Positions 2,826 to 7,141 of a stretch of 64,000 bases of DNA are shown in pieces; positions within the stretch are counted from its first letter, which is position 1, and each line of letters starts with the position of its first letter. Source of the stretch: Brachyspira aalborgi (lineage in GTDB: Bacteria > Spirochaetota > Brachyspiria > Brachyspirales > Brachyspiraceae); the NCBI RefSeq assembly GCF_008016455.1, contig NZ_SAXU01000001.1, positions 1,736,001-1,800,000 of the forward strand, written 5' to 3'. The notes below the pieces were generated by a model. That model saw only the letters and a list, made by a program, of their open reading frames with translations. It was not told the DNA's origin and did not search any database. The position numbers and the translations under genes are program-made.

Positions 2826-5684
2826 TTAATTTTCAGAAACAACTTTATCTTTACTTCCGTTAATAGTTCCGTCTTTATCGACTTTAACCGTAAATATTTT
2901 TGAAACGCCTTTTTCTTCGGCGGTTATTCCGTAATATGCATCCGCTATAGTCGCCGATACTTCATTATGCGTAATTATTAAAAATTGAGTTTTATTTGAC
3001 AATCCCTTAACCATATTTTTAAATCTTATAATATTTGCTCCGTCTAATGCGGCGTCAACTTCGTCTAATATGCAAAAAGGCGAAGGACGATATAAAAAAA
3101 TTGCAAAAACCAAAGCCAAGCCCGTCATTGTAAGCTCGCCTCCAGAATAAGAAACTATATTTTCCATTTTTTTGCCAGGCGGTTGAGCGAATATATCGAT
3201 AGGACTATTTAATAAATCTTCTTCATTTTGTATTTTTAAGCCAGCGTTTCCGCCGCCGAATAATATTCTAAAAGTTTCGGAAAATTTTTTATTTATTTCG
3301 TTAAATGTTTTTAAGAAATCTTCTCCCGCTTTTTTATTGGCGTCAAAAATAATTTTTAAAATTTCTTCTTTAGACTTTTCCAAATCTTCTTTTTGTTTGC
3401 TTAAAAATTCAAATCGATTTTTTGCCTCTTGATATTCGTCTAAAGCCATTTCGTTTATATGCCCTAAATTTTTTATTTTATCGTTTACCGCGTTTAATTT
3501 ATTTTTAAAAGTTTCTTCGTCAATTAAATTATGAGTTTCGTTTTCAAAATCTTTTAAGTTAAGCGCGTAATTTTCGTAAAAATGATTATATATATCGTTT
3601 ATTTTTTCGTTAGTTTGATTTATTCTCTCGCTTATTCTAGCGATATTGTCATTAACTTCGTTTAATCTCTTTACTCTTTTAGAATGACTCGCTTCAAAAT
3701 TAGATAAAGTAGATTCCGCTTTTTTTATCTCGTTCGCTTTGCTTCTCGATTCGCTTTCCATTTGAGATTTTTTCTTTTCAAGCTCTTTAAAATTAATATT
3801 ATTCTGTTTAAACTCTTCGTTAAGGTTTTTATAATCTTCTTCAAGTTTATTAAATTTTTCATTATGAGATAAAACTTCTTCCTCAATCAATTTTATATTT
3901 TTTATTATTATCTCTTTTCTCTCTTCAATCGCTTTTTTATTGGTTTCGTATTTTGCTTTTTCAACCGTTAAAGTAGTTAAATTTGAGTTCGCTCTATTTA
4001 TATTTTCCGTAGATATTTTTATTTGATTATTAATCTCTTCAATTTTATCGTTATTATTTTTAATATGATTTTCAAGTTCGGCAATTTCTTTATCTATATT
4101 TTCTTTTTGCATATAAGCGCCTTCTTTATCAAAAAGCAAATCAAAGAAAGGATTTTTTATTTTAGTATATTCTTTAAATATTCCTTGCAAAAATAAAGCG
4201 TCATTTTTTTCATTATCCAAACTATCTTTTAATTTTTCTATAAAACCCGAAATAGAATGAAAATTAAGTTCGTTAAAATTATTCAATATATTATATTCTT
4301 CAAATTCTTTTATAGAATTCATTTTAGAATCTATCGCGTTTAATAAATTATTAAATCCAATATCAATATCACTTTCATGCTTTCCAATATTTTGATAAAA
4401 ACTATTTCCCATTATATCTTTTTTCTTTTCGTCTATTTCGGTTATTATTTTATTTATCGCTTCAAGTTGTCTTTCGCGAGCATCCGATATTTTCAAATTA
4501 GCGTTTTGATTGTTTTGAGTTAATGCGGCAATTTCATCGTTAAGGCTTGCAATTTTATTTTGTTCGTTGGCTATATTATTTTCTTCCTCTTCCAATTCTT
4601 TTAATGCTCTTTCTATATTTTCAATAATATTTTTTATATCTTCTTCCAATTCTTTTACTTGATTTTTATTTTCTTCAATTCTTTTATCCAAAATATTTTT
4701 TCTGTTAATATTTTCTTCTTTTTCTTTATCTTTATTTTCTAATTGAATTTTTAATTGATTAGACATTTTCTCTATATGAATAAGTTCTTTGTCTATTAGA
4801 GAAACTTGTTTATCTAATTCTATTGATAAATTTCTTGTCTCTTCAAATTTAAGAAGTTCCATTTGTTTTTGATTGTCTAATTCTTTTAATTCTTTTTCTA
4901 ATTCTATTTTTTTATTATTTAATTCTTCCAAATTTTTTATCAGCTCTTCAAGATTAATTTTTGATTTTTTTACTTGATTTACATTTATGCTAATGCTTAT
5001 TTTTTTTCTTTCGTCAATTAAAGAATAATATCTTTCAGTTCTAGCGGCTTGCTCTTTTAAAGATTTGTAATATTTTTCGGCGTTTTTAATTTCTATTTTT
5101 ACATTATCAAGATTTCTTTCCGACTCTTCTAATTTTTTTGTAGCTTCTCTTCTTCTTTCAAGATACTTACTTATTCCCGCCGCATTTTCTATTATGCTTC
5201 TTCTCTCTTCGGGTTTTTGTTTAGCAATTTCCGATACAGTTCCTTGTTTAATAACGGAATACGCGTTTTTTCCAAGTCCCGTATCTAAAAACATATCGAC
5301 TATATCTTTTAATCTAACCTGTTCGTCATTTATATAATATTCCGACAAACCTTTTCTATAATATTTTCTTGTTACCGTAATCTCTTCTTTATCGTATTTC
5401 TTTATCCATTTATTTTTATTGTCTAAAGTTAAAGTTATTTGAGCGAGCGAAGATGGTTTTCTTGTATCCGTTCCATGAAATATAACGCTTTCAAGCCCTT
5501 TTGAAGCGTCCATTCTCAATCTGCTTGCCGACTGTTCGCCCATAACCCATAAAAAAGCTTCAACAATATTGCTTTTTCCTATTCCGTTTGGACCTAGAAC
5601 AACCGTAACGCCTTCGTTGAATTCTATATTCGTTTCTATAGCAAATGATTTGAATCCATGCAAATTAAGATTCTTTATATACAT
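2826..5684 (-). CDS. smc: Chromosome segregation protein SMC (short form)
   Basis: Condensin-like ATPase that organises and segregates the chromosome with ScpA/ScpB. The N-terminal head has Walker A GPNGIGKS (residues 32-39), followed by long coiled coils (about 170-395 and 535-770). The C-terminal head has the signature SYSGGELTMTG (from 845) and Walker B FCILDEVDAALD. At 952 residues it is much shorter than the roughly 1,180 typical of bacterial SMCs. The middle (about 400-530) shows no canonical glycine-rich hinge; instead there is a short non-coiled section (LFLQGIFKEY, NPFFDLLFDK). Shortened SMCs are known in spirochaetes such as Borrelia. The ATG follows AGGAAA. No gene of an ScpAB operon is adjacent. 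Confidence 0.92.
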   Translation of the reverse strand: MYIKNLNLHGFKSFAIETNIEFNEGVTVVLGPNGIGKSNIVEAFLWVMGEQSASRLRMDASKGLESVIFHGTDTRKPSSLAQITLTLDNKNKWIKKYDKEEITVTRKYYRKGLSEYYINDEQVRLKDIVDMFLDTGLGKNAYSVIKQGTVSEIAKQKPEERRSIIENAAGISKYLERRREATKKLEESERNLDNVKIEIKNAEKYYKSLKEQAARTERYYSLIDERKKISISINVNQVKKSKINLEELIKNLEELNNKKIELEKELKELDNQKQMELLKFEETRNLSIELDKQVSLIDKELIHIEKMSNQLKIQLENKDKEKEENINRKNILDKRIEENKNQVKELEEDIKNIIENIERALKELEEEENNIANEQNKIASLNDEIAALTQNNQNANLKISDARERQLEAINKIITEIDEKKKDIMGNSFYQNIGKHESDIDIGFNNLLNAIDSKMNSIKEFEEYNILNNFNELNFHSISGFIEKLKDSLDNEKNDALFLQGIFKEYTKIKNPFFDLLFDKEGAYMQKENIDKEIAELENHIKNNNDKIEEINNQIKISTENINRANSNLTTLTVEKAKYETNKKAIEERKEIIIKNIKLIEEEVLSHNEKFNKLEEDYKNLNEEFKQNNINFKELEKKKSQMESESRSKANEIKKAESTLSNFEASHSKRVKRLNEVNDNIARISERINQTNEKINDIYNHFYENYALNLKDFENETHNLIDEETFKNKLNAVNDKIKNLGHINEMALDEYQEAKNRFEFLSKQKEDLEKSKEEILKIIFDANKKAGEDFLKTFNEINKKFSETFRILFGGGNAGLKIQNEEDLLNSPIDIFAQPPGKKMENIVSYSGGELTMTGLALVFAIFLYRPSPFCILDEVDAALDGANIIRFKNMVKGLSNKTQFLIITHNEVSATIADAYYGITAEEKGVSKIFTVKVDKDGTINGSKDKVVSEN

Positions 5685-5825: not shown

Positions 5826-5853
5826 TTGACAATTATTTTATTTTGTTTATAAT
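5826..5853 (+). promoter_or_regulatory. Sigma70-type promoter for the metX leader
   Basis: TTGACA (5826-5831) and TATAAT (5848-5853) are separated by 16 nt. Both hexamers match consensus. Transcription would start near 5860, giving a leader of about 210 nt before metX. Confidence 0.85.
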
Positions 5854-5894
5854 AGTTCCAATTAATTAAAATAAATTTTTTTTAGGAGAATAAA

Positions 5895-5984
5895 TTGAAT
5901 AAAACGGCTTTCGTAAATAATCGAATTTCAAGAAATCATTTTTCTATGATGCAAATGCGATTTGAGGACGGCTGCATAGTATAG
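5895..5984 (+). CDS. Methionine-rich leader peptide of metX
   Basis: A 29-codon reading frame starts at TTG (5895) six nt after an AGGAG sequence (5884-5888) and ends at TAG (5982-5984). It contains Ser-Met-Met-Gln-Met at codons 17-21 (ATG at 5946, 5949 and 5955) and ends in Arg-Phe-Glu-Asp-Gly-Cys-Ile-Val. Three methionines in four residues sit just upstream of a terminator/antiterminator pair and a methionine-pathway gene, as expected of an amino-acid-sensing leader peptide. The stop codon lies past the 5' arm of the antiterminator. The peptide itself probably has no function; its translation is the sensor. It is not a recognised annotated family, so confidence rests on the sequence logic. 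Confidence 0.75.
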   Translation: MNKTAFVNNRISRNHFSMMQMRFEDGCIV

Positions 5985-6036
5985 TTTATTTTTATTTTAT
6001 AATTTCAGCCGTCAAATTTTTTGGCGGCTTTTTTAT
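5967..6036 (+). promoter_or_regulatory. Transcription attenuator (antiterminator/terminator) of metX
   Basis: Two mutually exclusive hairpins are visible. The antiterminator pairs GACGGCTG (5967-5974) with CAGCCGTC (6006-6013) in 8 perfect bp. The terminator pairs AGCCGTCAA (6007-6015) with TTGGCGGCT (6021-6029) in 9 bp with one G-U and a 5-nt loop, followed by a T run (6030-6035). A ribosome stalled at the Met codons (5946-5957) would leave 5967-5974 free and let the antiterminator form. A ribosome reaching the stop codon at 5984 would cover that arm and let the terminator form. Methionine shortage would thus switch metX on. A small CAAAT-GCG-ATTTG hairpin (5952-5964) could act as a pause site. 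Confidence 0.8.
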
Positions 6037-6070
6037 TTTAAAATTTTATTATTAGAGGAGATTTATTAAA

Positions 6071-7141
6071 ATGAGTATAAAACAAAAAATACCCGAAGTT
6101 AAATTTTTCGATACGAATAAAACTTTCAAATTTGAAAACGGAGAGACTATAGATAATTTAAAAATAGCCTACACGATTAACGGAAGATTAAATGTAAAAA
6201 AAGATAACGCTATTCTTATTTGTCATGCTTTTACGGGCGACTCGAATGTCTCTCTATGGTGGAGTAATTTTGTAGGAAAAAATAAAGCGATAGATATAAA
6301 TAAATATTTCGTTATATGTTCAAATGTTTTGGGAGGATGCTCGGGAACTACGGGACCTTCTTCTAAAAAATCAAATGGCAATTCTTATTATGGAACGGAT
6401 TTTCCAACTTTCACTATTAAAGATATTGTGAAAGTTCAAAAAATTCTTATAGATTATTTGGGAATAAAAAAATTATATTGCGTAGTCGGAGGTTCTATGG
6501 GCGGTATGCAAGTTTTACAATGGACTGCAGATTATCCTAATATGCTTGACAAGGCAATTATAATAGCAAGCTCTATGTCGCATTCGCCTATGCAAATAGC
6601 TTTAAATGAAATAGCGCGTCAGGCAATAACGGAAGATAACGAATGGTATGGCGGAAAATATTATGGAATGTCATCTCCAGATAAAGGACTCGCTTTGGCA
6701 AGAATGCTCGGGCATATAACTTATATGAGCGAAGAATATATGAGAGAAAAATTTGGAAGAAAAAGAAAAAAATCTTTAAAATATTTTACGCCTTCTTTTG
6801 AAGTTGAAAATTATTTGCATTATAACGGCGAAAAATTTACTTCAAGATTTGACGCTAATAGTTTTTTATATCTCACTAAAGCGATGGATTTTTTCGACAT
6901 AAAAGAAGATATTAAAAAAATAAAAACTAAAAAAAATATTGCTCTTAAAAAAGTTCTTATAATTTCTTTTATATCCGATTGGCTTTATCCAAGTTCGCAA
7001 TCTTTAGATATAGAAGAAGCTTATAATTATTCAAATATAGAAACGGAATATCATGAGATAAAATCAAATTACGGGCATGACGCTTTTTTGATAAAAAACG
7101 ATGAGCAGACAAAATATATAAAGAATTTTTTGAAGAATTAA
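6071..7141 (+). CDS. metX: Homoserine O-acetyltransferase
   Basis: Cytoplasmic alpha/beta-hydrolase-fold enzyme that acylates L-homoserine from acetyl-CoA, the committing step toward methionine. The catalytic triad is visible: nucleophile Ser142 in GGSMGG, Asp in ISDWLYP near residue 303, and His336 in YGHDAFL. The family motifs CHAFTGDSN and GGCSGTTGPSS are also present. At 356 residues it is normal for the family. AGAGGAG lies 8 nt before the ATG. The gene lies directly downstream of a Met-codon leader peptide and attenuator (5895-6036), so expression is probably controlled by charged tRNA-Met level. asd, earlier in the same pathway, is at 41.6 kb. Succinyl rather than acetyl specificity cannot be excluded from sequence alone. 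Confidence 0.95.
   Translation: MSIKQKIPEVKFFDTNKTFKFENGETIDNLKIAYTINGRLNVKKDNAILICHAFTGDSNVSLWWSNFVGKNKAIDINKYFVICSNVLGGCSGTTGPSSKKSNGNSYYGTDFPTFTIKDIVKVQKILIDYLGIKKLYCVVGGSMGGMQVLQWTADYPNMLDKAIIIASSMSHSPMQIALNEIARQAITEDNEWYGGKYYGMSSPDKGLALARMLGHITYMSEEYMREKFGRKRKKSLKYFTPSFEVENYLHYNGEKFTSRFDANSFLYLTKAMDFFDIKEDIKKIKTKKNIALKKVLIISFISDWLYPSSQSLDIEEAYNYSNIETEYHEIKSNYGHDAFLIKNDEQTKYIKNFLKN

Follow-up and report, generated by a model that had tools for sequence, protein, structure and literature searches.

A putative methionine leader-peptide attenuator upstream of metX and other methionine genes in Brachyspira

The metX locus of Brachyspira aalborgi

The analysed DNA, a single stretch of 64 kb from B. 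aalborgi referred to here as the window, carries metX behind a leader region whose upstream neighbour, smc, is transcribed divergently (Table 1). MetX scores 433.9 bits with NF001209, above the cut-off of 331, which supports its identity; the cut-off of the stricter TIGR01392 is not reached. A promoter, a Shine-Dalgarno sequence and an open reading frame are all present at the leader, as far as can be judged from sequence without translation data, and are followed by an intrinsic terminator. TTGACA/TATAAT-like boxes also occur upstream of the leader in related species, most of which carry an AGGA/GGAG Shine-Dalgarno-like motif at the matching position. The original prediction had described a TTG-started peptide of 29 codons with its own Shine-Dalgarno sequence and a Met-Met-Gln-Met run, overlapping an antiterminator of two pairing arms, and these features are read directly from the sequence. 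The terminator and its T run are present as well, but the helix had been placed at 6007-6015/6021-6029, one pair short of its actual extent.

Table 1. Features of the metX leader region and of the additional methionine leaders
Feature	Position	Strand	Remarks
smc	2826-5684	minus	divergent neighbour upstream of the leader region
Sigma-70 promoter	5826-5853	+	TTGACA-16 nt-TATAAT, consensus match 12/12
Leader Shine-Dalgarno	5884-5889	+	AGGAGA
Leader ORF	5895-5984	+	TTG start at 5895, 29 codons, LNKTAFVNNRISRNHFSMMQMRFEDGCIV, i.e. (L)NKTAFVNNRISRNHFSMMQMRFEDGCIV; TAG stop 5982-5984
Region 1 (protector arm)	5905-5917	+	partner ~5961-5974; 1:2 helix weak in the window, strong in relatives
Regulatory codons	5946-5957	+	ATG ATG CAA ATG (Met-Met-Gln-Met), in frame with the start codon
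Region 2 (antiterminator 5' arm)	5967-5974	+	GACGGCTG, pairs perfectly with CAGCCGTC at 6006-6013
Region 3 (antiterminator and terminator)	6006-6016	+	CAGCCGTCAAA; core AGCCGTCA invariant in relatives
Intrinsic terminator hairpin (regions 3 and 4)	6007-6029	+	10 bp, 6007-6016/6020-6029; 3-nt loop
Terminator U tract	6030-6039	+	TTTTTATTTT, directly after the hairpin
metX, homoserine O-acetyltransferase	6071-7141	+	356 aa; Shine-Dalgarno AGAGGAG, 6054-6060
metNI-type second copies	L080 3104-2993; L081 2243-2353; L082 3503-3391		B. alvinipulli and two uncultured Brachyspira
Second-type metY leader	G000:C1 about 2206450-2206650 (L125)	minus	B. catarrhinii counterpart L124 (G002)

Taken alone, the window sequence gives modest support. 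The fold z-score of the leader is -1.7, three of its 28 codons counted are Met (P = 0.018), and a pairing of region 1 with region 2 is present at the matching place without reaching significance (p = 0.18). A terminator scan of the window returned only four intergenic sites, among which the one in the metX leader is alone in having a competing upstream partner and in standing shortly (41 nt) before an open reading frame. Since the single-sequence signals are this modest, the case beyond chance rests on conservation. A covariance model was built from the metY-metX leaders of 18 other species, with the window species and its sister B. catarrhinii held out. This model matches the window at 5937-6037 with E = 1.6e-9, the next window match having E = 0.54, and it also found the held-out B. 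catarrhinii element at about 1e-7. The sister relationship is itself inferred from an 89% MetX identity.

Distribution and gene context

The family-level search covered 29 genomes, including 26 Brachyspira and three sister-family genomes. Every one of the 24 Brachyspira genomes whose metX is largely intact carried the element, and in each of them the reading frame, the Met-rich leader, the stop position and the terminator and antiterminator were kept. The original prediction, which would have been refuted by a lack of conservation of the frame or the Met codons, thus survived its own test. Of the remaining two genomes, G019 has neither metX nor the element, while in G017 metX is a remnant full of stops and the element has degenerated (E = 0.0135), with visible breaks in both its antiterminator arm and its terminator. 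In this latter genome (L083 1072-1184), remnants of both metX and metY with stops are seen, and part of a Met-rich ORF survives.

The proposed link to metX holds in that the element precedes this gene, but metX stands alone behind it only in the window species and B. catarrhinii Z12 (G002); in 22 species it lies upstream of metY-metX, with metY encoding an O-acetylhomoserine sulfhydrylase (TIGR01326). The window species and B. catarrhinii have a different metY, distant from metX. A second copy was found upstream of metN-metI, encoding a methionine ABC importer, in B. alvinipulli (G001) and two uncultured Brachyspira (G018 and G020), with VNFIMIVINMLCNSMQMTMVCSIDGCEV as an example of its leader peptide. 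The best match of MetN is TIGR02314, below the strict cut-off. The strongest functional hint available is that one switch stands ahead of two methionine gene sets that are unrelated to each other. The metN of the window species directly follows another ORF and has no such leader; for this genome, the search for further leaders was confined to the window and to the regions before metY and metN.

Outside Brachyspira, a model search of 393 spirochaete genomes gave only three matches (E about 0.014-0.019), which were judged to be due to chance. Further low-scoring model matches (E 0.09-1) look, where inspected, like ordinary 3'-end terminators. When about 85,000 species genomes were scanned for the pattern of the switch arms, 71 matches resulted, and none of those outside Brachyspira has a Met-rich ORF ending at the switch. 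This ORF filter also missed B. pilosicoli because the Shine-Dalgarno sequence of that species is distant.

The leader peptide

The leaders are about 20-30 codons long and start with ATG, TTG or GTG. From the start codon to the ATGCAA(ATG) core the distance is 39, 42, 45, 54 or 57 nt, a multiple of three in all 27 copies. From the MQM core to region 2 it is 15, 19, 24, 25 or 28 nt and the frame is not kept, so that region 2 is read in two frames, which give either (D)GC or (T/M)A(A/V) depending on the species. As the frame is maintained as far as the Met codons and not beyond, the peptide appears to be selected up to these codons and the RNA arm after them. Internal Met codons number two to six per leader, compared with a background of 2% in the ORFs of the window (P down to 1e-5), and they stand ahead of metX, metY-metX and metNI alike. 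The lower figure is met in two B. pilosicoli-type copies, and it is in this clade that the Shine-Dalgarno sequence lies far from the start codon. The stop codon follows region 2 by 2-7 nt in every copy (27/27; 7 nt in the window), in agreement with the claim that it is placed as in trp/his attenuation.

Sensing of cysteine, alone or together with methionine, has to be considered at this point. In the relatives the core reads LCLMQM, a Cys codon neighbours the Met codons in every one of the 22 metY-type leaders as well as in the three metNI copies, many leaders have further Cys codons within region 2, and the sulfhydrylase MetY assimilates sulfide. However, the leaders of the window species and B. 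catarrhinii have no Cys codon ahead of region 2, only SMMQM, and the TGC codon can be explained without cysteine sensing by the small hairpin formed by the conserved TTTGC...GCAAA bases. The extra copies before a methionine importer, together with the MMM of the other metY leader of the window species, likewise argue against cysteine, and we consider a cysteine sensor very unlikely.

RNA helices

The antiterminator (2:3) and the terminator (3:4) are mutually exclusive and both conserved: in the former 93.4% of cells are paired (17 distinct sequences), and in the latter 99.4%. Covariation, which had been suggested as a check together with the conservation of both stems, is weak: no changes on both sides of either helix were found because the arms barely vary. 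Folded separately, the antiterminator of the window has a stability of -15.9 kcal/mol and the terminator one of -13.3 kcal/mol. The antiterminator being the more stable of the two, region 2 must be blocked for termination to win. The two structures are within 2.6 kcal/mol of each other in 15 of 16 copies.

Such a block may be provided by a third, protector helix (1:2), which the original prediction, with its otherwise supported account of a complete two-state switch, had missed. When the nascent leader is folded up to region 2, codons about 3 to 8 pair with this region. In the metY-type clade (an alignment of 17 genomes) this helix, UCAUCGUUAU/AUAAUGAUGG, varies at five of its ten pairs (C-G/U-G, A-U/G-U, G-U/A-U and U-A/U-G), yet 100% of cells are paired. 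Slid versions of the pairing reach at most 81%, a value which is partly due to the internally repetitive arms. The p values are 0-0.07 in this clade and 0.01 in B. catarrhinii. In the B. pilosicoli-type clade the helix is made of other letters, AUGCAGUU/GGCUGCAU (p 0.05-0.14), and in B. catarrhinii of different letters again; no convincing 1:2 helix was found in the metNI copies. The alignments thus suggest that the third helix is kept through wobble-compatible changes inside a single clade and, from clade to clade, with a different sequence. On this basis, the metY-metX leaders offer good support for the anatomy of three helices, which for the leader in the window is only plausible.

Proposed mechanism

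The sequences show the parts and how they are conserved, Met codons lying in frame, pairings that exclude one another and an association with two methionine operons. Ribosome stalling, termination in vivo and the response to methionine, including its direction, are inferred. It is in our view highly probable that the element is a ribosome-mediated, trp-type transcription attenuator which senses the supply of methionyl-tRNA, although no expression data are available and the evidence is that of sequence comparison.

In this mechanism, transcription would start from the promoter and a ribosome would translate the leader behind the RNA polymerase. With methionine plentiful, the ribosome would pass the Met codons and reach the stop codon beyond region 2, where it would cover region 2 with its leading edge at about 5994; after its release, region 2 could pair with region 1. 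With region 2 occupied in either way, regions 3 and 4 would form the terminator between them, ending transcription before metX. With methionine short, the ribosome would pause at MMQM, its leading edge reaching about 5958-5967, leaving region 2 free and keeping it from region 1, so that the 2:3 pairing would form instead of the terminator and metX would be transcribed. These positions assume a leading edge at +15 from the P site and a stalled A site at the first to the last Met codon. On this assumption, the predicted stall and stop positions have the geometry of the trp/his attenuators. As every leader starts with methionine, severe starvation should make leader initiation rarer and termination more likely, and this could set a limit to the response.

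A constitutive weak terminator, or a leader peptide or small RNA acting in trans, would do without any regulation by Met-tRNA. For action in trans there is a precedent, as trp leader peptides can do so in other bacteria (PMC7298713). However, the residues outside the Met-rich core differ between the clades, and control in cis is in keeping with the conservation of the antiterminator arm and the stop position as well as with the second copies before other methionine genes. This possibility can hardly be maintained.

Relation to known regulatory systems

Methionine genes are usually under the control of SAM riboswitches. This background, together with the alternative structures adopted by the leader, could point to an undescribed SAM riboswitch or a site for an RNA-binding protein, with the ORF being incidental. 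Rfam scans of the window leader, which included riboswitches and the amino-acid leader families (among them His, Leu, Thr and Trp), gave nothing over threshold, however, and no conserved aptamer-like core is present besides the three arms and the Met codons. That the frame is kept exactly as far as the Met codons and no further also speaks against such a riboregulator, and this reading is highly improbable. A SAM-I riboswitch resembles the attenuator proposed here as an RNA switch over methionine/SAM genes, but it senses SAM directly and without translation. SAM-I (RF00162) was not detected at threshold in any of the 26 Brachyspira genomes, whereas each of the three sister-family genomes carries it; where its surroundings were read, in two of them, it lies before metK (L203 and L204; G028 and G026).

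Met-specific T-boxes are known from Lactobacillales. Like the proposed attenuator they read the charging of Met-tRNA to control methionine genes, but in a T-box the RNA binds the tRNA directly and there is no leader peptide. No T-box (RF00230) was found in the 29 genomes of Brachyspira and the sister genera, with positive controls, and a 2008 survey found none in six spirochaete genomes (PMC2494555).

Leader-peptide attenuators of the trp, his, thr, leu, ilv and phe operons classically belong to Proteobacteria. The Brachyspira element shares with them a leader ORF, here inferred to be translated, with many codons for the amino acid that the operon makes, the 2:3 and 3:4 helices, a stop codon beside region 2 and an intrinsic terminator before the first gene; a 1:2 helix is well supported in the metY-metX leaders and only plausible in the window. 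It differs in its Met codons, its spirochaete host and its lack of sequence similarity (no Rfam match), and also in that the sensed amino acid starts every leader. The cysteine leaders of Actinobacteria (PMC1262725) and the uORFC-8-2 cysS motif of Rhodobacterales (PMC8632094) are comparable in having an upstream ORF with tandem codons for a sulfur amino acid, but these codons are Cys instead of Met. The actinobacterial leaders have no identifiable terminators, in contrast to the Brachyspira element, for which all helices can be drawn, the 1:2 helix only weakly in the window, and the same survey explicitly found no methionine leader peptide (PMC1262725). A 2013 survey of Rfam motifs names leader-peptide attenuators only for His, Trp, Thr, Leu, Ile/Val and Phe (PMC3766115). 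In line with the original remark that no description was known, the literature searched contained no methionine leader-peptide attenuator and none for Brachyspira; subscription papers were mostly not covered and an earlier mention is not excluded. While the mechanism is classical, the amino acid specificity, the phylum and the apparent exchange of a riboswitch for an attenuator are new.

A second metY leader

The distant metY genes of the window species and B. catarrhinii have leaders of a second type (MIKNLFNLSNIASCKFYFSFAFSMMMRVVAR and MSSFISLNLLNNASCVFSFSLSMMMRVCAR, respectively), which are unrelated to the metX leader and have a promoter and a Shine-Dalgarno sequence of their own. Their ORFs end in SMMMRV(V/C)AR before the stop codon, the window species having SMMMRVVAR, and a GCGCGU/GCGCGC hairpin overlaps the last codons. 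No Met-rich leader was seen at the other spirochaete metY genes examined. This second type looks like an independent methionine attenuator.

Tentatively, and with somewhat more doubt than confidence, we propose that Brachyspira replaced the SAM riboswitch by methionine-codon attenuation as its general way of sensing methionine. There would then be at least two independent origins, namely the LMQM module before metX, metY-metX and metNI, and the SMMMRV(V/C)AR leader of metY. The response would be biphasic by design, with readthrough at mild and termination at severe starvation, because the sensed amino acid also initiates. A genus-wide methionine attenuator in spirochaetes would add one amino acid and one phylum to the leader-peptide attenuators, and suggests that a metabolite riboswitch was exchanged for a ribosome sensor between sister genera. 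It also raises the question whether a translation-based sensor can gauge methionine when the start of its own peptide needs methionyl-tRNA.

Additional observations on the operons

Two further observations concern the genes downstream of the leaders. In Brachyspira sp. G79 (G015; L024/L027), which is counted among the 24 genomes with the element, the match to metX falls into two overlapping frames towards the C-terminus, an apparent frameshift in an otherwise intact operon. In the metNI operons (L080, L081 and L082), a lactate/malate dehydrogenase-like gene lies between metI and the genes for MetQ-like lipoproteins.
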